Of a DNA stretch of 64,000 nucleotides, positions 708-42,282 are shown one piece after another. The first letter of the stretch is position 1. Each line of letters opens with the position of its first letter. The position numbers and the translations under genes were made by a program. Below the pieces are notes generated by a model. It did not search any database. It was not told the DNA's origin and saw only the letters and a program-made list of their open reading frames with translations. The stretch spans positions 36,043-100,042 of the forward strand of contig JAUXXH010000025.1 in NCBI GenBank assembly GCA_030684935.1, written 5' to 3'. This DNA is from Pseudolabrys sp. GTDB taxonomy: Bacteria > Pseudomonadota > Alphaproteobacteria > Rhizobiales > Xanthobacteraceae.

Positions 708-2260
708 CAGGCAAACACCACGATTTCGACGGAATTGTCCGCGCCGTCTTCGTTGATCTCGACCAGACGCCCGTCGCGTCCGACCGAAAGGTCGAAGCGC
801 GGATAGGTCACGTTGACGTTTTCCCCGAGGTTGAGATTGAACGCGGCCCAGTTGAGTTTCATGCGGTAGAGCCCCCGTGAGGCGCGGTAGAGATTGAGCC
901 GACGTGTCGCCTCTGCCTGCGCATCGCTATGATTGGCGAAGTAGGACTGCACCGGCTCGGCATCCAATGCGAAGGGATGATCCGCGCGAATGGCCGCGCT
1001 CGATGCTTCTGCGTATCGATAGTCCTGCGCCGCGAAGGCCCTGCGGGAAGCGGTGACACCGTCAGCGAGATCGTCCTGCACGGTCTCGTTGCGCTGATAG
1101 CCGACGCGAAACCGGTAAGGCGGCGGACTGATCCCCGACGGCAACGGCTCGCGCTTGATCTCGATGATGTCGTCGATGGTGAACCGCGAGGATGGCGGTG
1201 ACGACGGCGCCAGAACAATGCCAACCTCGAACTTTCCGTTGCGACGAAAGCCGCCCCACCCGCCGACGCCTGCCATGATGTTGGCGATGGCGTCGTCCAC
1301 GCCCTGACCGTCGTCCGTTCCCGACCAGTAGCCGATCGGCGCCGGCTGCGCCGTATTCACCGCGGCGAAGGCCGGCAAATAAATCTCGGTCGGATCGAGC
1401 ACATCGGTGCTGCGGTTGATGATGCGCCGGACGATATCGGCGGAGGTCTCGACGTACCCGCCCGCCGCATCGCCATGGAGATCGGCGGTCACCGTGCCGG
1501 CCGGCGACGATCCCAGCTTGAACAAGCCTTCCGACAGACACGTTGCATACTGCCCGGCAGGGACCGCGGCTGCGACCAGATCGGCATAAGTCGCAACGTC
1601 GGCAGAAAACGTCAGTTCGATACCGCGATCATAGATATGGTCGATGCTTTCGATCGCGCCGTCGTGGACCTGGTAGATCAAAAGATTCGGCACGACCAGC
1701 GGTGGCGAGACATTGAACACCCGGCCGAAGGCGAGCGGCTTGCGCTTCCCCGCCAGATCATCGCCGCCGTCGGCGCCGCCTGCCCCGCCGTACAGATTTC
1801 GCTGCAGCGGGACATCGAGCCCGTAGCCGAAATCCCGGATCGTGATCGTGAGCGCGTCTTCGTCGACCAGCCAGTCGGCGGCGGTGCCGACAAAGATCGG
1901 AAAATCCGTCGCGTAGTTGTCCTCGATCCGGCCGATCTTGAGGGTGATTCTGCGCCCGTCGATCGAGTAGGTGCCGATCAGAAAATCATACCGGCCGTCA
2001 CGGTTGTCGAGCGACATTGTGCCGTCGCCGGTCGAGAATACGCCGATGGTTGAGCCGCCTAACAACGACCGCCGGAACTTGATCGGCTGCGACAACGTGC
2101 CGTGAAACGGCACCCGCAGCCCCGCATCGAATAATTGACTGCTGGCGGCATAGAGGGTGAAGCGAAAGTCAGCGCGCAGGTCCGCGACGCCCGTCAGCCG
2201 CACGGCTGGATCGGGCAGCCCGCCGAAGGGAGCATCGCCGAATGCGTAGTGACCGAACAT
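707..2260 (-). CDS. Phage tail hub/baseplate-like protein
   Basis: Downstream of tape measure; sequence MFGHYAFGDAPFGG...DGTMSLDNRDGRYDFLIGTYSIDGRRITLKIG; start ATG at 2260. Confidence 0.6.
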   Translation of the reverse strand: MFGHYAFGDAPFGGLPDPAVRLTGVADLRADFRFTLYAASSQLFDAGLRVPFHGTLSQPIKFRRSLLGGSTIGVFSTGDGTMSLDNRDGRYDFLIGTYSIDGRRITLKIGRIEDNYATDFPIFVGTAADWLVDEDALTITIRDFGYGLDVPLQRNLYGGAGGADGGDDLAGKRKPLAFGRVFNVSPPLVVPNLLIYQVHDGAIESIDHIYDRGIELTFSADVATYADLVAAAVPAGQYATCLSEGLFKLGSSPAGTVTADLHGDAAGGYVETSADIVRRIINRSTDVLDPTEIYLPAFAAVNTAQPAPIGYWSGTDDGQGVDDAIANIMAGVGGWGGFRRNGKFEVGIVLAPSSPPSSRFTIDDIIEIKREPLPSGISPPPYRFRVGYQRNETVQDDLADGVTASRRAFAAQDYRYAEASSAAIRADHPFALDAEPVQSYFANHSDAQAEATRRLNLYRASRGLYRMKLNWAAFNLNLGENVNVTYPRFDLSVGRDGRLVEINEDGADNSVEIVVFA

Positions 2261-3408
2261 CAGATATCTGGCCTGTCTGAATTGCGGCCCGGGTGAATTT
2301 CGACCTTGTAGACAAGGCGCGCGCGCTGATCGTGCAGCAGCTCGGTCACCAGCGAACTTGCGACCGCATTGATGATCGCGACGCCGGTGAGGGTCGAAAC
2401 GCCTTCCTCGAGCGCGACCGGCCATTCGGACCAGTGCAAGAACGGGTGAAGCTTTGACGGCAGCGCCTTGCGAAACCGCACAGGCTCCGCGAGCGGCGGC
2501 ACCCAGCGATCGGCAGTGATGGCCTCTTGGAACGGCGCCGCCTTGACGAAGGCTGCGAACTGCTGCTGCCCGGCCGGCAATGATTTGCGAAACCGCACCG
2601 GCTCCGCGAGCGGCGGCACCCAGCGATCGGCGGTGACGGCCTCTTCGAACGGCTCAGCCTTGACGAAGGCCGCGAACTGCTGTTGCGCCGTGCGCAGGGA
2701 GGGACGGAAACGAACCGGCTCGCCGAGTGGCTGATGGAACGCCGCCTCGGTGACGTCTTCGGGGAATGGCTCGCCTTTGACAAAGGCGAGAAACTGCTGA
2801 TTCGGAGCTGAGAGCCGCTGCGCGACGTGAACGGCATTGGGATGCGAGAGCGGCTGATGCCAGTACTCTCCCGACACCAGCGGCCATTCGGACCACGACA
2901 GAAACTTCTGTGCCGAAGTGCCAAGCCGGCGCGGAAACCGCACCGGCTCCGCGAGCGGCGGCACCCAGCGGTCGGCGGTGATAGCCTCCTGGAACGGCGC
3001 CGCCTTGACGAAGGCTGCGAACTGCTGCTGCCCCGCCGGCAATGATTTGCGAAACCGCACGGGCTCCGCGAGCGGCGGCACCCAGCGATCGGCGGTGATG
3101 GCCTCTTCGAAGAGCTCGGCCTTGACGAAGGCCGCGAACTGCTGCTGCCCCGCCGGCAGCGCGGCGCGAAAGCGAACAGGCTCCGAAAGCGACCGGAACC
3201 AGCGATCGGCGGTAACGGTCTCAGGCTGCGTGAGATCGCCGATGACGATCCCGGACCACGCGATGACGGCAACCAGCGCCGCCGGCAAAACCCGAAACCG
3301 GGTCGGCTGCGACAACGGCTGGTTCCAGCTATCCTGGAAGACCGGTGTCGCCGATACATCTTCGGCATCGCCAAAGGCATATTCACCGAAGGGGCCAAAC
3401 CCAAGCAT
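2260..3408 (-). CDS. Phage tail-region protein made of about eight ~39-aa tandem repeats
   Basis: Repeated unit TADRWVPPLAEPVRFRKSLPAGQQQFAAFVKAAPFQEAI with variants; 117-bp DNA period. Confidence 0.7.
   Translation of the reverse strand: MLGFGPFGEYAFGDAEDVSATPVFQDSWNQPLSQPTRFRVLPAALVAVIAWSGIVIGDLTQPETVTADRWFRSLSEPVRFRAALPAGQQQFAAFVKAELFEEAITADRWVPPLAEPVRFRKSLPAGQQQFAAFVKAAPFQEAITADRWVPPLAEPVRFPRRLGTSAQKFLSWSEWPLVSGEYWHQPLSHPNAVHVAQRLSAPNQQFLAFVKGEPFPEDVTEAAFHQPLGEPVRFRPSLRTAQQQFAAFVKAEPFEEAVTADRWVPPLAEPVRFRKSLPAGQQQFAAFVKAAPFQEAITADRWVPPLAEPVRFRKALPSKLHPFLHWSEWPVALEEGVSTLTGVAIINAVASSLVTELLHDQRARLVYKVEIHPGRNSDRPDI
2465..3215 (-). repeat. Intragenic tandem 117-bp repeats
   Basis: Near-identical blocks such as gaaaccgcaccggctccgcgagcggcggcacccagcgatcggcggtga around 2470, 2588, 2935 and 3052. 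Confidence 0.8.
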
Positions 3409-13668: not shown

Positions 13669-14298
13669 TCACCCGATCATTGTGTGTGAGTAGACGAAGC
13701 CGCCACGAACGAGACCTTCCATGATCTCGGCCGGCACCAGCGGGTCGTCCGGACGCCCGTAGCGGTACGTTTCCGAGATCACCCCGGGAATATCCATGCT
13801 GCCGAGCGAAGGATCGCGGCCACGTTCGGCGTGCAGCGTGTTCGCGAGTTTGGCGGCCAACTCTTTCAGGCCAGGCGGCACAGTCGTGAACCCGGCCCGA
13901 AACGACACGATCGTTTTCCCGCTCGCCCACCACGCAGGGCAACCATTCTGGACCCGGCAGAGACTTCGGTCGCCGCACTGTTCATAGTCATCCGCGACAA
14001 CAAGGGCGGCACCATCTTCCTCGACCGAGAGAACTTCGATGATCGGCTTGCGGGAGAGATACAGCACATCGACTGGACAACGCAGCCGCACGGTCTCGGA
14101 ATAAGTTTCCTCGCGCAGCGTCAGTATCGCAGCGCCGGCGCGATCCATGCCGCAGGCGCCCGCGAGCAATTCGCTGACGCGCTCATTCAGCCGTTGCAGT
14201 GCCAGATTGTTGAAGCTCGACACTCCAATGGCTTCCGCCACTTCCGCCAACGTCAGAAGCGTCGGATCGGGCGCTGCCGTGGTCACCGTCAGCATCAC
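13669..14298 (-). CDS. Head-tail connector (gp6-like)
   Basis: LTLAEVAEAIGVSSFNNLALQRLNERVSELL..., downstream of portal/capsid module. Confidence 0.6.
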   Translation of the reverse strand: MMLTVTTAAPDPTLLTLAEVAEAIGVSSFNNLALQRLNERVSELLAGACGMDRAGAAILTLREETYSETVRLRCPVDVLYLSRKPIIEVLSVEEDGAALVVADDYEQCGDRSLCRVQNGCPAWWASGKTIVSFRAGFTTVPPGLKELAAKLANTLHAERGRDPSLGSMDIPGVISETYRYGRPDDPLVPAEIMEGLVRGGFVYSHTMIG

Positions 14299-15251
14299 TT
14301 AACCTTCACCAGCACCGGATAGAGATCGCACTCGACCTTCGATCCGTCTGCATTCAAGAGCGTCAGCATACCCTCGCCGTCGATCGACATATGCTCGATC
14401 GCGGGCCCGGCCGGACCGCGGGGCCCGGCGACACCACGATCACCGGGCTTGCCGGTCTTGCCCTGCGACGAAATAAGCTGCCAGCCATCACCCGGGCAGA
14501 CGCCCGGATTGTCGCGGCGGGCGATGAAGGCCGCGCCGCCGAGCGCGACAATGTCGAGATCGCGATAGTCGGCCACGGTCTCGCTAAAGGTGCCGCGCAC
14601 CTTCGGGCTGCGGCCGTCAGCGCCATCTCGCCCGGCTGCGGCGAGGCAAACCCAGTCTTCATGCGGAGGCGCCTTGGCGGTATCGCGCACTGCCTGGTAC
14701 GTCGCGCCCTCATGGCTGCGAACCTGCCCATCGTAGTGAACCCCCTCGGTCCACACCTTGACGGCAGGCAGCAAGCCAGCCGGGCCGCGATCGCCGGCCT
14801 CACCCGTGTCACCCTTCTCGCCGCGCTCTCCAGGCAGCCCGCGCTCGCCCTGCGGGCCTGCCTCGCCGCGTAAACCGCGCTCACCCTGCGGGCCTGCCTC
14901 GCCGGCCGGCCCACGGGCACCAGTGTCGCCCTTTTCGCCTTGCGGACCGGCTTCACCGGCCGGACCGCGCTCGCCCATGGCACCCGGGTCGCCTTTCTCT
15001 CCGCGCTCGCCCTGCGGGCCGCGTTCGCCCTGTGGGCCCGCCTCGCCGGGCAGGCCACGCTCGCCATCCTTGACGGACGCCAGGCGTTCCAGGATGGCCC
15101 GCTCAAGGTTGGCAAGGCGCATCTCTGATTCGACGACCATTCGGCGAAGATCAGCGACGGCGGCGTCGATGCGCAGCGCCGCATCGCGCTCGACCCGGCC
15201 CGCGACAAGCGCAAGCTCGTCGACGAGGGTATCAAGCGGCGATGCGGACAT
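14295..15251 (-). CDS. Collagen-like (Gly-X-Y) repeat protein in the phage head module
   Basis: 32 consecutive G-X-Y triplets (GERGLPGEAGPQGERGPQGERGEKGDPG...) plus a second block GKTGKPGDRGVAGPRGPAGPA. Confidence 0.85.
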   Translation of the reverse strand: MSASPLDTLVDELALVAGRVERDAALRIDAAVADLRRMVVESEMRLANLERAILERLASVKDGERGLPGEAGPQGERGPQGERGEKGDPGAMGERGPAGEAGPQGEKGDTGARGPAGEAGPQGERGLRGEAGPQGERGLPGERGEKGDTGEAGDRGPAGLLPAVKVWTEGVHYDGQVRSHEGATYQAVRDTAKAPPHEDWVCLAAAGRDGADGRSPKVRGTFSETVADYRDLDIVALGGAAFIARRDNPGVCPGDGWQLISSQGKTGKPGDRGVAGPRGPAGPAIEHMSIDGEGMLTLLNADGSKVECDLYPVLVKVK

Positions 15252-16605
15252 GGGCTGCCTGTTTGGAGCGGAACGATTGGCGCATGCGTTCATTGCGTTC
15301 CGCTTCCGCCTCCGTATCGTTGTCGGGATCAGGCTCGTCGTCAGTGTTCGCTGGGTTCGGTGTCGTCGCCGAAGCCTGCGACTTACCCGCCATGCTCAGC
15401 GGTTTGTCCTGATCCTGAATCAGGATCTCATCACCGCCCGCGATCTTGGGAAGGTCGATGAAACGGCGGGCTTCATCCAGCGTCATCAAACGTCGCGTAG
15501 CAGTGGACAGAGCGTCGATCATTTCCTTGAACGACGAGCGCAGCAGCGCGTTAGTGTCGAATTCGACATATTCTTCCGGAAACCCTTTGAGGCGGAACAA
15601 GGCCCCGAATGCTTCCTCGATATGATTGAGAACGAAGCCCAACCCCATCGCCTTCCACGACGACATCAACGCCTCGGTCGAGGCGAATGGCGTACCGCCG
15701 ATGCCAAGGATTTGAAGCGGCACCCGGAACGCCAGCGCGACGTTCTGATCGGACAATTTCATCATCTCGGCGAGCTGTGCATCGCCGGCGCCGACCGTGA
15801 CGGCTTTCGCCTTTAGACCCCACGAAAGGATCGGCGTGCCGCCGGCATTGCCACCTTGCGTCTGCGAATCCCAGCGCTGTCGCAAGTCGTCGGCTTCGGT
15901 TTTGGAAAGCTTCTGCTCGGTCTCGAGCATGAACGACGGGCGCGCCTGGTTGAGATAGAACGCGACCTGCTGGGTCAGCGCGGCGCCGGACATCTGCAAT
16001 TCGAGCGCGCAAGCGGTGATAGGGCTCTCACCCTTCAATGGATGCTGTGGCGTGTGCAGCCGGACATGCAAAACATCGCGCGCCGGGATCGGATCGGACA
16101 GATTAAACCGCCGCTCGACGATCTCATTTCCCCGCAGCCAATAGAAGATGGAACCATCTTCAGCAACAATCGGCCAGCCGTCACGCATCCAGTGAAGCTC
16201 GGCAATCTCATTCCGGCTGTTGCGTACGGCGAGCGCAAAGCCTTCGCCCTTCGTGTAAACACGACGGGTAAGGTTCAGCAGGAAATCCGACATTGACTGA
16301 TAGTCGTTCGGCTTCCGGATGACCCGCGACAGATCGGAGGTCGTGACCCGCTCCACGCCGCCGTCGCCGAGCGCCCGCTTATGATCTCCCGGGCACATCG
16401 CAACCGTCTGTGCATAGGCGGAGACACAGGCCTCGACCATGGCGCCGGATTCGCCGCCGGGCCGCAGCGAGTATCCCATCTGCCACCAGTTCATAAACTT
16501 GCCGGCAGCGGCCGACAGCCAGCCGCCGTCGAGCAGGTACGGCCCGGGCCGCGCCTGCCCTTCGGCTGCCTTTGTCGTTCCCATCAGCCGGGACAAGAGG
16601 CCCAA
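15232..16605 (-). CDS. Phage portal protein (HK97 type)
   Basis: MGLLSRLMG...GGWLSAAAGKFMNWWQMGYSLRPGGESGAMVEACVSAYAQTVAMCPG... typical portal. Confidence 0.9.
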   Translation of the reverse strand: MGLLSRLMGTTKAAEGQARPGPYLLDGGWLSAAAGKFMNWWQMGYSLRPGGESGAMVEACVSAYAQTVAMCPGDHKRALGDGGVERVTTSDLSRVIRKPNDYQSMSDFLLNLTRRVYTKGEGFALAVRNSRNEIAELHWMRDGWPIVAEDGSIFYWLRGNEIVERRFNLSDPIPARDVLHVRLHTPQHPLKGESPITACALELQMSGAALTQQVAFYLNQARPSFMLETEQKLSKTEADDLRQRWDSQTQGGNAGGTPILSWGLKAKAVTVGAGDAQLAEMMKLSDQNVALAFRVPLQILGIGGTPFASTEALMSSWKAMGLGFVLNHIEEAFGALFRLKGFPEEYVEFDTNALLRSSFKEMIDALSTATRRLMTLDEARRFIDLPKIAGGDEILIQDQDKPLSMAGKSQASATTPNPANTDDEPDPDNDTEAEAERNERMRQSFRSKQAAHVRIAA

Positions 16606-19773: not shown

Positions 19774-21531
19774 TCAGGCGACCATCGCGGCGATTTCAGG
19801 CCGAGGCGCGACAACCGGATTTGTGCTCATCCGGTCGCCGGCGTCGAACATCGCCATCGCCAAATCTATCTTTCGGTCGCCGGCGAATTGCTTGGTGGCC
19901 CGGAAGGCCGTTGCGGTTGCTTCGATCTTCAGGTTTTCAACGCACCAGTTGAGCAGCGCACAATCCGAATGAATGAAGGTGCCATCTATTAACTTGCGCT
20001 CGATCGAGCGCAGCGCGTTCATCAACTTGTGCCCGCGCTGATCGATGCCGAATAATTTCTTGTCTTCCTGCGTGACCCCTATGTCCGCCAGCGCATCGAC
20101 CATCGCGCCGAGCCCTTCGGGGTCCATCGCGACACAGGCAAGCAAGCCGGCATCGTCAATTTTCTTGATCACCTCGACGATCGCCGGGATGTCCGGGATA
20201 ACTCCCTCGTCCTCGAGGTTGTCGTCGATGATGGTCAGTTCACCGCGCTTTTCGAAGCCTTCAAGGGCGCTCGCAATTGATTTACGGCGCTCCAGAACTT
20301 TACGAAAACACCACCCACGCGACCAAACAAGCCAGCGCTTCGTGCCGGTCTCACGGCCCATGACGACTAGACCGAAGAGATCGTCCGCGCCGCCGCCGTC
20401 TATCCCGACAACAATCGCTTCACAGCGCGCCAAGATGGAATCGAGCGTGATCGACTTGTCTGCTCTCTTTTCCCAGTAGTCGGCGCCGGACCATCGATCG
20501 GTACCGAGGCCCATGCCTATTTCGATATTGAAGTGCTGGCTCGCGGCGCGCCGCATCTCGGCATCGCCCTTCGTCTCAGCATCGCTCCAAATCTCTTGGA
20601 GACCCGCGATCGATATCGACCGATTGATGTTTGGGTTGACCCACGCCCAATGCTCTGGCTTGCGCCACTCGCCGGCCTTCATCATGGCCTGCGAGAATTC
20701 ATACAGGACGGGAAGCATCATCCCGCCCTTGGACAGACCGTCGCGCACCTCGCGCGCCTGGTGCAGCTTTTCCTTGAAGACGCCGACCGGCACGTCGTCG
20801 GATTCCGTCGTGATGATCAGGCGAAACGCTTCAGGTATAGGAAGCTGACCGCCGCTGAGCTGCCCCATGATATTGGCGGCTTTGGGATGCTTCGCGAGCT
20901 CCCAAAACTCATCGAGCAGAATGCCTACCGGCTTCGCGCCGACCACGATCTTCTGATCGAACGTCTTGATCTGAAGGGTCGCGCCGAGTCCTTCCTTCTG
21001 GTCGACGTTTCGTTTCGTGATCTTTTTGAGGTGAGCCTGGACCTTGAAGATATGCTTGAGGTATCCGGCCTTGCCATCGATTTCGCGCTGCGCCCGATCG
21101 TCTTCCTCGATCATGCCAACGCAAGCAGCGAAGGCGATTTCCGCGACCTCGTGCGAGGGGGCAACCAGCAAAAACTTTCCGCGCGGCCGCTTGTTAAGGA
21201 TCAGCGCGGTCATCATGACCGCGGCGCCGCCGCCGGTTTTGTCGTTCTTCTTCGGGACCAGCAGGAAGATTTCGCGGATCTCGCGGCGGCACGTCCCGTC
21301 GCTTAGCGACCCGAACTGCGACCCGAACAACGGGCGGACAACCGCCTGACGAAACCACTCACCGCCAGCCTCGCCGCGCGTCGGCGTTCCGACCACATCA
21401 TGCAGGCGTAACCGGTTATAGATCGAGACGGCCTTATCAGCCGCCGCAGTATCGAGCGGAAGGTCCGGTATTGGCGGATGGCCCGCGCGAAGCTTGGCCT
21501 CCCACCCGACGCACGAGAAATCCCACGCCAT
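19774..21531 (-). CDS. terL: Terminase large subunit
   Basis: 585 aa; RREIREIFLLVPKKNDKTGGGAAVMMTALIL and VGIDGGGADDLFGLVVMGRE nuclease-domain motif. Confidence 0.92.
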   Translation of the reverse strand: MAWDFSCVGWEAKLRAGHPPIPDLPLDTAAADKAVSIYNRLRLHDVVGTPTRGEAGGEWFRQAVVRPLFGSQFGSLSDGTCRREIREIFLLVPKKNDKTGGGAAVMMTALILNKRPRGKFLLVAPSHEVAEIAFAACVGMIEEDDRAQREIDGKAGYLKHIFKVQAHLKKITKRNVDQKEGLGATLQIKTFDQKIVVGAKPVGILLDEFWELAKHPKAANIMGQLSGGQLPIPEAFRLIITTESDDVPVGVFKEKLHQAREVRDGLSKGGMMLPVLYEFSQAMMKAGEWRKPEHWAWVNPNINRSISIAGLQEIWSDAETKGDAEMRRAASQHFNIEIGMGLGTDRWSGADYWEKRADKSITLDSILARCEAIVVGIDGGGADDLFGLVVMGRETGTKRWLVWSRGWCFRKVLERRKSIASALEGFEKRGELTIIDDNLEDEGVIPDIPAIVEVIKKIDDAGLLACVAMDPEGLGAMVDALADIGVTQEDKKLFGIDQRGHKLMNALRSIERKLIDGTFIHSDCALLNWCVENLKIEATATAFRATKQFAGDRKIDLAMAMFDAGDRMSTNPVVAPRPEIAAMVA

Positions 21532-21619: not shown

Positions 21620-22003
21620 CTAGAGATTTGATCTCCCCCCCCCTGTCTCAATCGGGTCGATCCAGCCGGCGCGCTTGGCTTTTTCATCGCGGGTCTTTCG
21701 GCCATGGCACGCACCACATCGGAGCAGCACGTTGCGGCGATCAAGCTTCGCGCCGCCATCCGTGATCTCGATGATGTGATCGCCGTATATCTGCTTCCAT
21801 GGACCGCGCGGCGTCTCGCACTTTGGATCCTCGCAACGCCAGCCGCGCTCCTTAATCAGTTGATTGCGGAACGTCTTCCATTCCGGCGAGAGGTAGAAGG
21901 AGTCGGTGCGCTTGCCTGATCTGCTCGTGTCCGCTGGTGCTAGTAGCCGGCCGCTCTTGGCCACGGCCAAGCGACCGGGCGCCATACGCAGTGGCCCGGC
22001 CAT
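21620..22003 (-). CDS. HNH endonuclease (terminase-associated)
   Basis: CEDPKCETPRGPWKQIYGDHIIEITDGGAKLDRRNVLLRCGACHGRKT. Confidence 0.85.
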   Translation of the reverse strand: MAGPLRMAPGRLAVAKSGRLLAPADTSRSGKRTDSFYLSPEWKTFRNQLIKERGWRCEDPKCETPRGPWKQIYGDHIIEITDGGAKLDRRNVLLRCGACHGRKTRDEKAKRAGWIDPIETGGGRSNL

Positions 22004-22006
22004 CGG

Positions 22007-22564
22007 TTAGTTCGCGCGCGCGCCAGGCGAAGGTGGATCATCCCAGCGCGCCACCTCATCGGCAGGCATGCCACGGTCATCATCATCGCCGGAGATGCGC
22101 GGGGCGGGTGGTTCATGGCGCCGGCGCAGCTCGACCAGCATCATGGCCTTGTTGACCTTGATCCGGCCTTTGGCTGCATCGTATTCGGTGATCGCCGCCC
22201 ATTGCTGGGGCGTCAACTTTTCCCAGTCGACGGTCGGATTGCCCTCGGCGTTGAGCACCAGCAAGCCCTTGTCGTCCCGCTTCATGCAGGAGGCCAGGCT
22301 GAAGGTGGCGATGTTCTCCATCTCCTGAAGGATGCGCGCCAGGCGCATGCCACCCACGGCCAGGACCGGGGCCTGAAGCTCGGCCACCCGGTCAAGAATG
22401 GCCTTTGAGTATTCCGACCGGCGGATCAAGCGCACGGCGTTGCCGCGGCGCGGCTTAGCATAGCCCGCAGCCGTATAGGCCTGAAGGTCGTCGGCCATAT
22501 CGAAGGCAATGGCCTGTGCTACGGCCTCATGTTTGGGATTGCGTAATCGGCTCATTTGAATCAA
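22007..22564 (-). CDS. Terminase small subunit-like protein
   Basis: HTH-like N-terminus (AQAIAFDMADDLQAYTAAGYAKPRRGNAVRLIRRSEY), upstream of HNH and terL. Confidence 0.75.
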   Translation of the reverse strand: MIQMSRLRNPKHEAVAQAIAFDMADDLQAYTAAGYAKPRRGNAVRLIRRSEYSKAILDRVAELQAPVLAVGGMRLARILQEMENIATFSLASCMKRDDKGLLVLNAEGNPTVDWEKLTPQQWAAITEYDAAKGRIKVNKAMMLVELRRRHEPPAPRISGDDDDRGMPADEVARWDDPPSPGARAN

Positions 22565-22608
22565 AGGGAATCATTTCTGCCACGGTTTGGACTCAACTTG
22601 TCCCTCAT

Positions 22609-22700
22609 AAAAAGGGCCACTCACCGATCCCCGGCAAGCGGCCCAAGTCTAGGGAGGAAACGCCCAAGGAGGGCAACGGCTGGAAGGTTCAATCACAGCC
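22609..22700 (-). ncRNA. Putative phage-encoded anti-SD (CCUCC) sRNA, related to the host element at 41168-41250
   Basis: 45-nt identity (22634-22678) with 41190-41234; on the minus strand followed by a hairpin (22614-22644) and T5 tract; CCUCCUU and UCCUCCC motifs. Confidence 0.7.
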
Positions 22701-22715
22701 GCATACCCTAGAACG

Positions 22716-22744
22716 ACAAAGCCGGCACAATGGCCGGGCTTTGT
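22716..22744 (-). terminator. Terminator-like hairpin between NusG-like gene and sRNA
   Basis: ACAAAGCCCGGC-CATTGT-GCCGGCTTTGT with a weak T tract. Confidence 0.45.
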
Positions 22745-22859: not shown

Positions 22860-23444
22860 TTACTTCGCTTCCAACTCGCCGGCAGAGACAACCATGTCCT
22901 GTTTGCCGCCGAACAGCTTACCTTCCACCTTGATACTGATTCGGCCACCGGGCGCAACCTTGGTCACCACGGCATCCCCCAGCTTGTCGGCGTAGACGTC
23001 ATTGCGAAACCTCACCGCCTGCCCGACTTCCAGCGCCGGCATGCCATCCGTGTAGCCCTGAAAGCGGATATTCAGGCGAGCCTCGATATCCCTGATCATC
23101 TCGATCTCAGCCTTGTCGACGAAGCGCGCCAGGCGCAAAGGCCGGATGCGCACCCAGTCGAGAATGCGGTTGCGCCCGTTGATCTGCAGGAACTCGATAG
23201 GCGCGAACAGCATGCCCGGCAGCACAGATCGAGCAGACGGCATCTGCGTGCGGCCGCGCCGCGTGCGCTGGATCGTGTAATGCGGCCAGTACAGCACGAT
23301 GCCAAGCTTGTCCTTCAGGAAATCGCAGATGCGCCGTTCCTTGTTCGGCTCGGCCAGGAAGACCTCCCAATCCGGATATCCCGAATATTCGGTTTCCGGC
23401 AGCGGGTCGCAGGGCGCGGTGTTCCAGTCGATCTTTGCCAGCAT
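22860..23444 (-). CDS. NusG-family transcription elongation/antitermination factor
   Basis: NGN-like N-terminus (DWEVFLAEPNKERRICDFLKDKLGIVLYWPHYTIQRTRRGR...VLPGMLFAP) and KOW-like C-terminus (VGQAVRFRNDVYADKLGDAVVTKVAPGGRISIKVEGKLFGGKQDMVV). Confidence 0.85.
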   Translation of the reverse strand: MLAKIDWNTAPCDPLPETEYSGYPDWEVFLAEPNKERRICDFLKDKLGIVLYWPHYTIQRTRRGRTQMPSARSVLPGMLFAPIEFLQINGRNRILDWVRIRPLRLARFVDKAEIEMIRDIEARLNIRFQGYTDGMPALEVGQAVRFRNDVYADKLGDAVVTKVAPGGRISIKVEGKLFGGKQDMVVSAGELEAK

Positions 23445-23450
23445 GTTCGC

Positions 23451-24293
23451 TCACCCTGTTTTCGAGAATTGCGGGTCTAAATCATCGATTTCCTCTTTCG
23501 GAGGATCGGTCGCTTTCGGCGGGAAGAGGGTTGGGAAATACCAGCCCCATCGCCCTTCCCGGCTTGTCCGACAGGCCCAAGGCCGCCCGATTTCCTTGGT
23601 CTTGAACGCTTGCCACGCGCTGTAGGCTGGCGTTCCGTCGAACACGAAAATGAAATCGCCGGTGCCGCCAGCCGTAGTGGCACCTTGCGGTTTCGGAGGT
23701 GGCGGCGGGGGTGGCGCGTATCGGCGCGGGGTAGACCTGCCAAGACCGGCCTTTTCAGGATTAGTCTTGGATGGTTCAGCAGAATCTATATGGCTGCACG
23801 CAGGTGCATGCGGTCCGACTGCACCAGCGTGCATGCGGCTGGCGTTTTCAGCCTCGTTTTCCACAGGCTCACCGGATGCACACGGTGCATGCGGTTCAAC
23901 AGCATCTTGTGGCGTTTCGGGCGCCTCGACACTATCAAGATCGGCGGTTTCGTCGCCCGTTTCGTCCGCCTCTTGATCGTCGTTTTCGAGGCCGTCTGCC
24001 TTGATCCAGGGGCCGTCAGGGCGGTTAAACAGGATCCAGTAGTCATTCGCCCGCTGCTTGCCGTCAGCGCCTCTGGCAGGCGCTTTGCGGATATAGCCGT
24101 TGCGGATGAGAGCCCCGACGAAATTGAACACGGCGCGCGGCGAGCACGCCGCTTCCTTGGCGATGGTCTCCGCCTTCAGCCAGCAATAGCCGTCCGTGTG
24201 GTTGGCATGGTTGGCGATCGCCACGAGGACGAGCTTCGGCCGGGCCGGCAGTTCTTCGCGATCGAGAACCCATGCGACGGCTTGAATGCTCAT
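23451..24293 (-). CDS. Helix-turn-helix replication-type protein
   Basis: MSIQAVAWVLDREELPARPKLVLVAIANHANHTDGYCWLKAETIAKEAACSPRAVFNFVGALIRNGYIRK. Confidence 0.7.
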   Translation of the reverse strand: MSIQAVAWVLDREELPARPKLVLVAIANHANHTDGYCWLKAETIAKEAACSPRAVFNFVGALIRNGYIRKAPARGADGKQRANDYWILFNRPDGPWIKADGLENDDQEADETGDETADLDSVEAPETPQDAVEPHAPCASGEPVENEAENASRMHAGAVGPHAPACSHIDSAEPSKTNPEKAGLGRSTPRRYAPPPPPPPKPQGATTAGGTGDFIFVFDGTPAYSAWQAFKTKEIGRPWACRTSREGRWGWYFPTLFPPKATDPPKEEIDDLDPQFSKTG

Positions 24294-24523
24294 GCGAACG
24301 GAACCTCCGCCGACTCGCACACCGGCGTGCGCTCGCAATTCACCCGCTCACCGTCACGATAGAATTCCAGCCAGGGGCGGACGCTTGGTTCATGCCGCGT
24401 CACCTTGACGATCTGGCACCGCTCGCAAGACACTTCCGTCTTGTACGGGAAGCGTTTGGCCTCGCCCCATTTGTGCCGGCCATGCTTTCCGATAGCGGGG
24501 TTGATGATGGCGACTTCGCTCAT
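24290..24523 (-). CDS. Small cysteine-containing phage protein
   Basis: Translationally coupled ORF, CERC motif. Confidence 0.55.
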   Translation of the reverse strand: MSEVAIINPAIGKHGRHKWGEAKRFPYKTEVSCERCQIVKVTRHEPSVRPWLEFYRDGERVNCERTPVCESAEVPFA

Positions 24524-37949: not shown

Positions 37950-38404
37950 ACCAGCGCCCGGCAGGTCTGGTGTTCCTGAGCGAGTCCGACATCCTCGCCG
38001 GCTGGCCCATGCTGACCGCCGGAGAGCTGAAGCGAGCCCGGAAGGCCAATCCGCCGTTGATATCGTTCTATGATTTCCCCAAACGCCAGGGCGGGCCTTG
38101 CTGCACGGCCGAACAAGTGCAGGAATACGTCGACCGAACATATTTGAGGGGTTCCGAATGCCGAGCCGCCGCCAGCAGCCCGCGCCAGCCCGATTCCAGA
38201 TCGGGGAATACTACCTCGATCAGCCCCATCGCGATCATGGAGGCAACTGGTACGCCTGCCGCTATGACGCCGACACTCGAACGACACGCCGCCGAAGCCT
38301 TGGCACAGCAGATTTCGAGGCCGCAAAGATCAAGCTCGCTACGCTTATTGCAGCGGCCCCGAAGGCATCGAGGGAAGGATCGCGTGGCCCTGGTGAAGTC
38401 ATGA
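37946..38404 (+). CDS. Excisionase-like small HTH protein (3' half overlaps the integrase in another frame)
   Basis: GTG start; NQRPAGLVFLSESDILAGWPMLTAGELKRARKANPPLISFYDFPKRQGGPCCTAEQVQEYVDRTYL. Confidence 0.5.
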   Translation: MNQRPAGLVFLSESDILAGWPMLTAGELKRARKANPPLISFYDFPKRQGGPCCTAEQVQEYVDRTYLRGSECRAAASSPRQPDSRSGNTTSISPIAIMEATGTPAAMTPTLERHAAEALAQQISRPQRSSSLRLLQRPRRHRGKDRVALVKS

Positions 38405-39558
38405 CGGTCGCCGTCCTCAAAGCCTACCTTGACGACCACGCCACATCGATCGCATCCGAAGACGTCGCGGTGCGCGCCGTCGAACTGTTCACCGAGCATC
38501 TGCGCAACATCGGCCAGATCGCCGCGCCGGTTTCGTTCTGGACGCCGTCGCAGCAACTTGAATGCGCCCGCTGGCTGCACACCGAATTCAAGCACGGCGC
38601 CGGCGGCATCGCCCGGCTGTTCAACGTGATGCGCTCCGCCTTCATTGACGCGTGCCAGGTCAAGATGCGCATCGACCCGATCGGCACGCAGGTCGAGACC
38701 GCGCTGATGGCGTCGGCGCCGGTCGTCGTCATGCGGCAGGACCGCGTCGCGAAAGAACTTGGCATCGCCGCGCGCCCGGCGCGGCGCAAGACATTGTCGC
38801 TCGATCAGATGGCGCAGGTGCTCGACGCCATCGAGACCGAACATCTGTTCCGGTTTGCCATCGCCGAACTGTGCACCTGGGCACGGCCGCAGGCGATCAT
38901 CGACTTCGATCCGGCTACGCAGATCGACTGGACCGAGACGACGATCGACCTTGCGCCGGTCGGCTGGCGTCCGACAAAGAAGCGCCGGCCGCGCCAGCCC
39001 TTGACGCAATGCCTTGCCGACTGGGTTGTGAAGTGGACGGCCGATGACGAGGCGAAGCGCGTTGCCGAGCTGCGTGCCGGCCGGACGCCGCCAGCGAAGG
39101 GCTTGCTGGTCTACAAGCGCCAGCGCGTCAAGACGACGAAGCAGGCATGGCGGCGCATCGGCCGGGATCTCGAGATACCGGGATTTTCGCAGTACAGCTT
39201 CCGGCACTTCATGGCCGATCAGACCAAGATGCTTTTCCGCGGCATCGCGCGTGAGCAGCGGTCGCAATGGCTCGGCCACGTCGTGCGCGACGGATCGAGG
39301 ACCACGGACAACTACGAGGGCGACGATCCGATGGCGCTGGCCGACGTCGCGCTGGCGACGGATTGCATCATCGCGCTGCTCGCCGAGCGGTGCGCGCGAC
39401 CGCTTTTCGCGATTGAACTGCGATTGAACCGGGCGGACCTTGAAGCGATCGGTGCGCGGGTGATGCCGAAAGTGGCCGTAAAACCGGGGAAAAGTGGTGG
39501 GCGCGACAGGGATCGAACCTGTGACCCCCTCCATGTCAAGGAGGTGCTCTCCCGCTGA
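38158..39558 (+). CDS. int: Phage tyrosine recombinase/integrase
   Basis: Integrase-like C-terminal catalytic region (SQYSFRHFMADQTKMLFRG...QWLGHVVRDGSRTTDNYE); stop lies inside the antisense tRNA-Val gene. Confidence 0.85.
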   Translation: MPSRRQQPAPARFQIGEYYLDQPHRDHGGNWYACRYDADTRTTRRRSLGTADFEAAKIKLATLIAAAPKASREGSRGPGEVMTVAVLKAYLDDHATSIASEDVAVRAVELFTEHLRNIGQIAAPVSFWTPSQQLECARWLHTEFKHGAGGIARLFNVMRSAFIDACQVKMRIDPIGTQVETALMASAPVVVMRQDRVAKELGIAARPARRKTLSLDQMAQVLDAIETEHLFRFAIAELCTWARPQAIIDFDPATQIDWTETTIDLAPVGWRPTKKRRPRQPLTQCLADWVVKWTADDEAKRVAELRAGRTPPAKGLLVYKRQRVKTTKQAWRRIGRDLEIPGFSQYSFRHFMADQTKMLFRGIAREQRSQWLGHVVRDGSRTTDNYEGDDPMALADVALATDCIIALLAERCARPLFAIELRLNRADLEAIGARVMPKVAVKPGKSGGRDRDRTCDPLHVKEVLSR

Positions 39559-40190: not shown

Positions 40191-41114
40191 TTGCGATGGT
40201 ATTGCTCTCAGCCAATGACCGCTTCCATGAGTGACATCACCGACGCCCTCGAGCCGCCGTTCGAGATCATCGAACCGCCGGCGATCCGGGGTCCGGTGCT
40301 GTTCAACTCGCCACACAGCGGTTCGCGCTATTCGCCCGAGTTCCTCGACCTGTCCCGGCTCGATGTCCCGACCCTGCGGCGCTCCGAGGACAGCTTTGTC
40401 GATACCCTGATCGCCGGCGTCATCCAGCAGGGCTATCCGCTGATGCGGGCGCATTTTCCCCGTTGTTTCGTCGACGTGAACCGGGAGCCCTACGAGCTCG
40501 ACCCGCGCATGTTCGAGGGCCGCCTGCCCTCCTTCGCCAACACCCGGTCGATGCGGGTCGCCGGCGGTCTGGGGACGGTGGCGCGGGTGGTCGGCGACGC
40601 GCAGGAAATCTACGACCGCCGCATTCCGGTGGCCGAAGCCCTGGCCCGCATCGAGGACCTCTACAAGCCCTATCACCGGGCATTGCGCGGGCTCTTCACG
40701 CGGCTGCACCGCGACTTTGGCGCCGCCATGCTGATCGACTGCCATTCGATGCCGTCCTCGGCCGGCCACAAGGATGAGCGGCCCAGGCCGGAATTCGTGC
40801 TGGGCGATCGCTACGGCACCAGTTGCGTGGCCGTGGTGGCCGAGACCGCCGAGCGGACCCTGCGCTCGCTCGGCTACACCGTCAGCCGCAACAAACCTTA
40901 TGCCGGCGGCTTCATCACCGAGCATTACGGCAACCCGGCCGCCGGGCTGCATTCGCTGCAGCTGGAAATCAACCGCGCGCTTTATATGGACGAGCGCCGC
41001 TACGAGCGGATTCCCGCCTTTGACCGGTTAGCCGCCGATCTGGAAACGGTGGCGATGCGGCTCGGCGAAATTCCGTTGGAAGAGCTCCGTCCCTACCGAG
41101 CCGCCGCCGAATAA
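40191..41114 (+). CDS. N-formylglutamate amidohydrolase family protein
   Basis: VLFNSPHSGSRYSPEFL...HFPRCFVDVNREPYELDPRMFEG...LIDCHSMPS. Confidence 0.9.
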   Translation: MRWYCSQPMTASMSDITDALEPPFEIIEPPAIRGPVLFNSPHSGSRYSPEFLDLSRLDVPTLRRSEDSFVDTLIAGVIQQGYPLMRAHFPRCFVDVNREPYELDPRMFEGRLPSFANTRSMRVAGGLGTVARVVGDAQEIYDRRIPVAEALARIEDLYKPYHRALRGLFTRLHRDFGAAMLIDCHSMPSSAGHKDERPRPEFVLGDRYGTSCVAVVAETAERTLRSLGYTVSRNKPYAGGFITEHYGNPAAGLHSLQLEINRALYMDERRYERIPAFDRLAADLETVAMRLGEIPLEELRPYRAAAE

Positions 41115-41167
41115 TCCGGGGCCCATCACGGGTCGCAGGGGCGCCATAACCGTTTGAAATAATAAAT

Positions 41168-41250
41168 AAAAAAAGGGCCGCTCGCGGTTGCAAGCGGCCC
41201 AAGTCTAGGGAGGAAACGCCCAAGGAGGGCAACGATAGCTCTCGCTACCG
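41168..41250 (-). ncRNA. Putative anti-SD (CCUCC) sRNA, suhB/mmgR-like, upstream of and antisense to an inositol-monophosphatase family gene
   Basis: Minus strand: GATAGC-type 5' hairpin, GCCC-TCCTT-GGGC hairpin, TTTCCTCCC, then GGGCCGCTTGC-AACC-GCGAGCGGCCC followed by a T tract. Confidence 0.75.
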
Positions 41251-41502
41251 CATTGCAATAACTTACACTGCGACGCACAAAATGCAAGTCCATCCAAACG
41301 GATTCTCATGCAAATACGCATGGCTGGTTACCGAAATCTCTTGTTCGACCAAAGTCATGCGAAAATGTGAGCTGGACTTTGCCGCATTGCAACAAGATTT
41401 GAAATGTCCGGTCGGCCAATGGCCGTCCAGATACGGCTCGAGACGACCGGATTGCCGTCTAACCCCGGTCTTGATAGGTCGCCACTTTATGCGAGGATTG
41501 AT

Positions 41503-42282
41503 ATGACGGCAGTGGATTTTGGAACTTTCGTCGACGAACTCGCCAAGGCGTCCGGCGACACCATCCTGCCGTTCTTCCGCACCGCCCTGGCCATCGACAA
41601 CAAGAAAAGCGGCGGCTTCGACCCGGTGACCGTTGCCGACCGCGCCGCCGAAGACGCCATGCGGGCGCTCATCCGCCAGAATTTCCCCGAACACGGCATA
41701 CTCGGCGAGGAATACGGCACCGAGCGCGGCGACGCCGAATATGTCTGGGTGCTGGACCCGATCGACGGCACCAAGTCGTTCATCTCGGGCATGGTGGCCT
41801 GGGGCACGCTGATCGGGCTGATGCGCTTCGGCGAGCCGGTGTTCGGCATGATGCACCAGCCCTTCACCCGCGAGCGGTTTTCCGGCGATGGCGGCGCGGC
41901 GCGCTACCAGGGACCGGGCGGCGACCGCGACCTGCGCGTGCGCTCCTGCGGCGCCCTAGGCGACGCCGTGCTGTTCACCACCAGCCCGCTGCTGATGAAC
42001 GCCGCCGACCGCGCGACGTTTGCCGGCGTCGAGAACAAGGTCAAACTGTCGCGCTATGGCGGTGATTGCTACGCCTATTGCATGCTGGCGAGCGGCCACA
42101 TCGATCTGATCATCGAGACCGAGATCAAACCGCACGACATCGTGCCGCTGATCCCGATCATCGCCGGCGCCGGCGGCATCGTCACCACCTGGGAGAACGG
42201 CCCGGCGCATGCCGGCGGCCGCATTGTCGCCGCTGGCGACAAGCGCGTGCACCAGGCCGCGCTGGACATGCTGAACGGCTGA
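41503..42282 (+). CDS. hisN: Histidinol-phosphatase / inositol monophosphatase family protein
   Basis: GILGEEYGTERGDAEYVWVLDPIDGTKSFISGMVAWGTLIGL. Confidence 0.88.
   Translation: MTAVDFGTFVDELAKASGDTILPFFRTALAIDNKKSGGFDPVTVADRAAEDAMRALIRQNFPEHGILGEEYGTERGDAEYVWVLDPIDGTKSFISGMVAWGTLIGLMRFGEPVFGMMHQPFTRERFSGDGGAARYQGPGGDRDLRVRSCGALGDAVLFTTSPLLMNAADRATFAGVENKVKLSRYGGDCYAYCMLASGHIDLIIETEIKPHDIVPLIPIIAGAGGIVTTWENGPAHAGGRIVAAGDKRVHQAALDMLNG

Follow-up and report, generated by a model that had tools for sequence, protein, structure and literature searches.

A prophage of Pseudolabrys sp. carries, in its late-gene control region, a true small RNA (sRNA) gene of the alphaR8/MmgR family that belongs to the phage itself. 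The gene was found in a stretch of 64,000 nucleotides of contig JAUXXH010000025.1 (here called the window; Table 1), which also contains the host copy. The family, conserved across Alphaproteobacteria, is carried by a large set of phages, and about one-third of the copies found occupy a fixed slot at the late switch, beside a gene for a NusG paralog. This suggests that such phages imitate a host regulator when virus assembly is switched on.

Results

Two alphaR8 RNAs in prophage and host chromosome

Both elements were matched over their full length by the covariance model RF00519 on the minus strand (cmscan; 59.4 bits for the phage copy and 71.5 bits for the host copy, with a gathering cut-off of 41 bits). 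RF00519 is the model of suhB or MmgR ("Makes More Granules Regulator RNA"), also called alphaR8. The original prediction had named the suhB/mmgR family and proposed the Rfam search, and both copies exceeded the cut-off. They were the only RF00519 copies found in the 3.67-Mb assembly (a draft of 89.6% completeness), and both folded far better than shuffled sequences (z = -4.5 for the phage and -5.5 for the host copy).

Comparison within the window confirmed the predicted identity of 45 nt between positions 22634-22678 in the prophage and 41190-41234 in the host chromosome. A 41-nt part of it recurs elsewhere, at 6 viral loci and in 25 loci of genomes; the identity therefore reflects constraint and is no proof of recent copying from the Pseudolabrys host. 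A recent duplication is also unneeded as an explanation. The description of the phage element as a second copy of the host sRNA thus stands insofar as there are two RF00519 copies, one of them in a prophage, but not as a recent duplication: the phage copy has a phage-lineage leader (NusG paralog, terminator, and CATAGGGT) and lacks the host-type promoter region. The suggested "cuckoo" type was not borne out. Cuckoo/CcsR RNAs are by definition hairpin RNAs arranged in tandem that share a transcript with a DUF1127 gene (PMC10253847), whereas the phage RNA is single, with the NusG paralog and late genes as neighbors.

Table 1. Positions of the phage and host features within the window
Feature	Position	Strand	Evidence
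Terminase large subunit (TerL)	19774..21531	-	PHROG 9, 4.7e-80
HNH endonuclease	21620..22003	-	Profile match
First ORF after sRNA, 185 aa, no family	22007..22564	-	ORF and profile searches
Phage alphaR8/MmgR-like sRNA	22599..22681	-	cmscan 59.4 bits; fold z = -4.5
Intrinsic terminator of the sRNA (14 scored pairs), followed by T5	22609..22644	-	Fold and terminator scan
Conserved anti-Shine-Dalgarno 10-mer UUUCCUCCCU, predicted seed	22651..22660	-	Sequence; kept when the adjoining hairpin is replaced
Middle hairpin GCCC-UCCUU-GGGC	22662..22674	-	Fold; other paired hairpins there in other phages
TAGGGTATG, phage-class leader element (consensus CATAGGGTGTGCGG)	22702..22710	-	Only such site in the window
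Upstream terminator T1, between NusG paralog and sRNA	22722..22737	-	Terminator scan; same place in other phages
NusG paralog, putative transcription antiterminator, 194 aa, directly upstream of sRNA	22860..23444	-	Member of alignment A1; profile and structure
Replication initiator (O-like)	23451..24338	-	PHROG 8540 and others; same family upstream in 18 other loci
attR, 3' end of tRNA-Val	39494..39541	.	48-nt direct repeat (attL) 50.0 kb away at contig C39:25529
Host N-formylglutamate amidohydrolase (FGase), classic alphaR8 neighbor	40191..41114	+	Pfam FGase 1.9e-73
Host alphaR8/MmgR sRNA (suhB RNA), outside prophage	41161..41237	-	cmscan 71.5 bits
Host suhB-like inositol monophosphatase gene	41404..42282	+	Pfam Inositol_P 2.3e-47

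The phage copy lies inside a prophage of ~50 kb integrated at tRNA-Val, and the host copy lies 1.7 kb outside it. Since the tRNA-Val repeats are 50.0 kb apart, the prophage extends to both sides of the phage copy. The prophage is a temperate siphophage in which the repressor, ParB, methyltransferase, and replication initiator genes are found to one side of the sRNA. On its other side stand the HNH and terminase genes, and the late operon continues past TerL with capsid, portal, and tail genes. The sRNA was thus rightly placed near the start of the late genes, but it is not directly upstream of the terminase gene as had been stated, because the 185-aa ORF and the HNH gene intervene. A profile search for the tyrosine integrase PF00589 found no match on the prophage contig. 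Two long ORFs (38098-39558 and 38068-39534) without a Pfam match overlap the tRNA-Val att site. Elsewhere in the prophage, an ORF with a weak spanin match (2260-3408, minus strand) contains, at 2355-3300, five copies of a 250-nt stretch in register at a spacing of 117 nt (39 codons); a protein encoded at 14295-15293 (minus strand), between the head-tail adaptor and portal genes, has tail-fiber and collagen-like matches; and the left arm carries a gene for an ATP-dependent DNA ligase catalytic domain (L128:12582-13232).

The host copy occupies the locus between the FGase and suhB-like genes, a known alphaR8 site (PMC12559287). Similarity of the FGase and SuhB proteins places the host among relatives of Pseudolabrys and other Hyphomicrobiales. 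Linkage to FGase, found for the host copy and not for the phage copy, defines the subfamily alphaR8s1 only and is not needed for membership in the family.

Structure of the phage RNA

Both RF00519 copies run into an intrinsic terminator on the minus strand, as is characteristic of the family and as had been predicted. The host stem GGGCCGCUUGC/GCGAGCGGCCC is followed by T7, and the phage stem GGGCCGCUUGCCG/CGGUGAGUGGCCC by T5. The 3' arms differ as described, and three G-U pairs maintain the pairing of the phage stem. Preservation of the structure by wobble and compensatory pairs agrees with the earlier view that an RNA, and not merely DNA, is conserved. The phage transcript probably runs from ~22700 to the T5 at 22609. 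Should it terminate there, the 10-mer UUUCCUCCCU is expected to be unpaired; in a longer folded stretch, GAGGGA located 3' of T5 pairs with it.

The NusG paralog and the proposed late leader

We next examined the protein encoded directly upstream. In its family (alignment A1), 28 of 31 members matched Pfam NusG and 28 matched PHROG 6386 ("transcription antiterminator"); the family profile matched NusG (1e-31) and RfaH (6e-17) in the PDB. The window protein alone gave a weak Pfam match (E = 0.006, below the curated cut-off), and its AF2 model matched NusG/RfaH structures in Foldseek. By profile and predicted structure, the product of 22860-23444 has the NGN and KOW domains and the fold of NusG, and its family and position point to a putative function in antitermination. 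The same protein family was found upstream in 32 of the initially examined loci, window included.

Profile searches around 122 viral copies detected the NusG paralog directly upstream on the same strand in 38, in addition to the window, and TerL downstream in 24. Of 16 records in which PHROG 9 identified TerL, 11 have the sRNA ~1 kb ahead of the TerL gene and in the same orientation. The layout common to about one-third of the viral copies and the window is NusG paralog, terminator, CATAGGGT, sRNA with its own terminator, HNH, and terminase. This order is kept across many unrelated phage contigs, and annotated Bradyrhizobium prophages have the same gene order as the window prophage.

The arrangement was also approached from the proteins, with NusG relatives searched for by single proteins; a PHROG 6386 search across the class returned mostly ordinary NusG. 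Among 13 loci found only through the NusG-paralog protein, 9 contained the core with at most one mismatch. Upstream DNA was sufficient for 39 TerL relatives; 16 of these had the NusG paralog upstream, and the core or its 10-mer part was present in 4 of the 16. Late genes preceded by a NusG paralog are thus the wider arrangement, into which part of the phages have recruited the alphaR8 RNA. The NusG paralog precedes TerL without an alphaR8 core in the other 12 and also in L347, indicating that antitermination would not need the sRNA. In four loci with the NusG paralog and TerL and no alphaR8 RNA (L285, L287, L294, and L304), a terminator follows shortly after the NusG gene, with an apparent next ORF close behind.

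In the NusG/TerL class, T1 is followed by CATAGGGTGTGCGG and then by the sRNA. Of 47 copies of this class, 40 have TAGG at a distance of 20-75 nt before the core; the corresponding figures are 4 of 90 for copies at host FGase loci and 7 of 79 for the remaining viral copies. In L347, the closest relation of the NusG paralog of the window, T1 and CATAGGGT are present and an ORF takes the place of the sRNA; the element is thus separable from the RNA. TAGGGT[AG]TG occurs once in the prophage, and no conserved -35 partner accompanies it in related phages. A simple consensus scan gave no sigma-70 site for either the phage or the host copy in the window, and a sigma-70 promoter for the phage copy was rejected on this ground, CATAGGGT being without a -35 partner. 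By direct inspection, host copies have an ordinary-looking upstream region of the TTG.../TATTGT type, which is absent from the phage class.

AlphaR8 RNAs in other phages

The original prediction had proposed a search of related prophages, and alphaR8 RNAs proved to be widespread in phages, including the annotated Bradyrhizobium prophages. The exact 21-nt core was present in at least 120 IMG/VR viral contigs (a source in which contigs can be misassigned), with flanking stems that differ yet remain paired; this way of sampling favors copies whose core is perfect. For the downstream half, a 19-nt pattern gave 87 IMG/VR matches, ~52 of them new relative to the 21-mer set, and the two sets amount to at least 170 other phage sequences with an alphaR8-type RNA. 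When 50 full viral records were tested with RF00519, all 50 matched and 42 were above the cut-off. FGase was near none of the 122 viral copies, as opposed to 89 of 127 copies in named genomes (profile search). Judged by neighbor families only, 79 viral copies are in other contexts, belonging to neither the NusG-paralog nor the TerL class.

Five annotated phages have a clear or likely alphaR8 copy, among them the 121-kb Bradyrhizobium phage BDU-MI-1, in which an alphaR8-like RNA with an intact 10-mer and a replaced middle hairpin lies in an unannotated gap (L127:5004). Two phages deposited as Microcystis phages, Mwe-JY08 and vB_MweS-yong2 (L123 and L126), carry the alphaproteobacterial alphaR8 sRNA; their true hosts may be alphaproteobacteria living with Microcystis. 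At least two RF00519 matches, weak ones included, were found in 36 of 81 genomes of the sampled order, and part of these may be prophage copies. The open-access literature that we searched contained no earlier report of phage alphaR8 copies; a 2016 alphaR8 phylogeny outside this coverage could mention isolated cases.

Conservation of the stems and of the 10-mer

RNAalifold on a plain MAFFT alignment detected no covariation, stems of different length probably being misaligned, and arm-swap tests took its place. A T-run was recognizable in 99 copies; the 8 nt before it paired 8/8 with the upstream region of the same copy in 88%, and with that of another copy in 13%. The effect was weaker for the 5' hairpin (a stem of at least 6 in 58% with its own arm and 28% with a swapped arm).

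Among 77 copies chosen by GTTTCCTCCCTAGACTTGG alone, 40 have the canonical neighbor hairpin GCCC-TCCTT-GGGC. The other 37 have another sequence there, mostly a different paired hairpin (for example, GCCTC-ATTAC-GAGGC or GCTGGTTC-CGAT-GGACTGGC), and a few show little pairing. The view of the CCUCCUU loop as an essential seed is thus unsupported. The constancy of the 10-mer UUUCCUCCCU in this sample is built in, as it forms part of the GTTTCCTCCCTAGACTTGG search pattern. Among loci picked by the NusG protein or TerL, L262 and L281 keep GTTTCCTCCC with another hairpin, and BDU-MI-1 does likewise. Since the middle hairpin is often swapped while the 10-mer is kept, the conserved working part looks like the 10-mer and not the CCUCC loop.

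Discussion

The best-studied alphaR8 RNA, SisA of Caulobacter, represses TonB receptors and other mRNAs with Hfq through the 10-mer, its tested seed, and is removed by the sponge CrfA (PMC12559287). StxS is a terminated late leader that serves as a trans-acting sRNA (PMC7873438). The position of the phage RNA behind a NusG paralog, a putative antiterminator, points to a late-operon leader that doubles as a trans-acting sRNA, and these two precedents together with the anatomy favor a late leader that is also an alphaR8 mimic. We therefore consider it fairly probable that the phage RNA is a host-mimicking, trans-acting sRNA formed as the terminated leader of the late operon, and that the NusG paralog converts this leader into late mRNA; transcription, processing, targets, and antitermination are what we infer here. 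Transcription starting at or passing CATAGGGT would normally stop at the sRNA terminator and release an Hfq-type RNA of 80-100 nt. Its exposed 10-mer would pair with Shine-Dalgarno regions of host mRNAs under host alphaR8 control (TonB receptors, transporters, and metabolic genes), and the phage would thereby raise the alphaR8 dose. As the NusG paralog accumulates, polymerase would read through the terminators into HNH, terminase, and structural genes, so that the sRNA would serve both as a terminated late leader, like StxS, and as a mimic of the host regulator. The phage could plausibly benefit from a reduced display of receptors (superinfection exclusion) or from a changed nutrient state ahead of lysis. 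No complement of the core of at least 7 nt was present in any start region in the window; as this held for phage and host genes alike, it carries no information on self-targeting of phage genes. The late-leader idea does not apply to the 79 viral copies in other contexts. We propose only tentatively that, in Hyphomicrobiales phages, the late leader mimics a conserved global host sRNA and is coupled to a NusG paralog, with the lysis-lysogeny state dosing a host regulon that includes outer-membrane receptors.

Other readings of the element were weighed against this one. The phage RNA could act as a decoy whose 10-mer absorbs a host sponge of the CrfA type and keeps the host alphaR8 active, or that competes for Hfq. 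CrfA of Caulobacter binds exactly the 10-mer (PMC12559287), which is retained while the rest of the RNA changes; however, the net effect would resemble plain mimicry, so the sequence cannot separate the two, and we regard the decoy as unlikely though worth keeping in mind. Somewhat less likely still, the RNA may be mainly a loading signal for the phage NusG paralog, acting only in cis on the late operon as the dfn hairpin does for LoaP and ops for RfaH. Many leaders contain GCGGTAG, a sequence similar to ops. The NusG paralog also directly adjoins the sRNA, and LoaP requires a leader hairpin (PMC12691694). Nevertheless, the same core occurs in phages without a nearby NusG paralog, at host FGase loci, and in BDU-MI-1; the middle hairpin is exchangeable; and phages with the NusG paralog and no core exist. 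GCGGTAG itself is likewise common at host FGase loci, with 25 of 83 copies against 20 of 46 for the phage class, a distribution to be expected from shared ancestry.

The host sRNA gene might instead have been acquired by chance and retained only for its terminator. Terminators are useful at that boundary and 79 viral copies lie in scattered contexts, but the unpaired 10-mer has been kept despite extensive change in stems and loops and the same slot has been used repeatedly, which makes a neutral passenger very improbable. There is a negligible chance that the 45-nt identity stems from duplication of the host sRNA gene as an attachment site or by recombination. The direct repeat does flank 18.5 kb; however, it is the 48-nt end of tRNA-Val, with its two copies 50 kb apart, that forms the true att repeat, and this pair contradicts an attachment-site origin. 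In addition, the phage copy separates the late genes from the early genes, and the integrases of other proviruses lie at a great distance from the sRNA.

If the combination of late leader and alphaR8 mimic is correct, phages dose a host regulon by imitation, and part of the multi-copy, laterally spread distribution of alphaR8 is explained. It would also offer a direct route to testing alphaR8 targets and antitermination by NusG paralogs in phages.

Phage sRNAs are known singly, mostly from enterobacteria. The phage RNA resembles the alphaR8/MmgR/suhB family (RF00519, including SisA-D of Caulobacter crescentus) in its full-length match, the 10-mer UUUCCUCCCU, the three-hairpin layout, and its own terminator. 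It differs from the family in lying in a late-control region and not at the FGase locus, in lacking the host-type promoter region, and in having the CATAGGGT leader element and an upstream terminator. As with StxS, which in Stx phages is the terminated PR' late leader and acts in trans on host mRNA (PMC7873438), the sRNA would arise by termination between an antiterminator gene and the late operon. The two share no sequence homology, however; the Stx late promoter is under Q, with a NusG paralog in its place here, and StxS, unlike the phage alphaR8 RNA, belongs to no host sRNA family. The system is also similar to LoaP and RfaH in that a phage gene with the NusG fold adjoins a leader with a terminator, any recognition element here being putative; LoaP recognizes a hairpin in RNA, and RfaH one in DNA (PMC12691694). 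Finally, phage sRNAs with effects on host sRNA networks, replication, or superinfection include the sponges AgvB and AsxR as well as PreS and STnc6030 (PMC12197685, PMC7873438). Their sequences are unrelated to that of the phage alphaR8 RNA, and whereas those sponges antagonize host sRNAs, the phage alphaR8 RNA carries the host sRNA's own seed.
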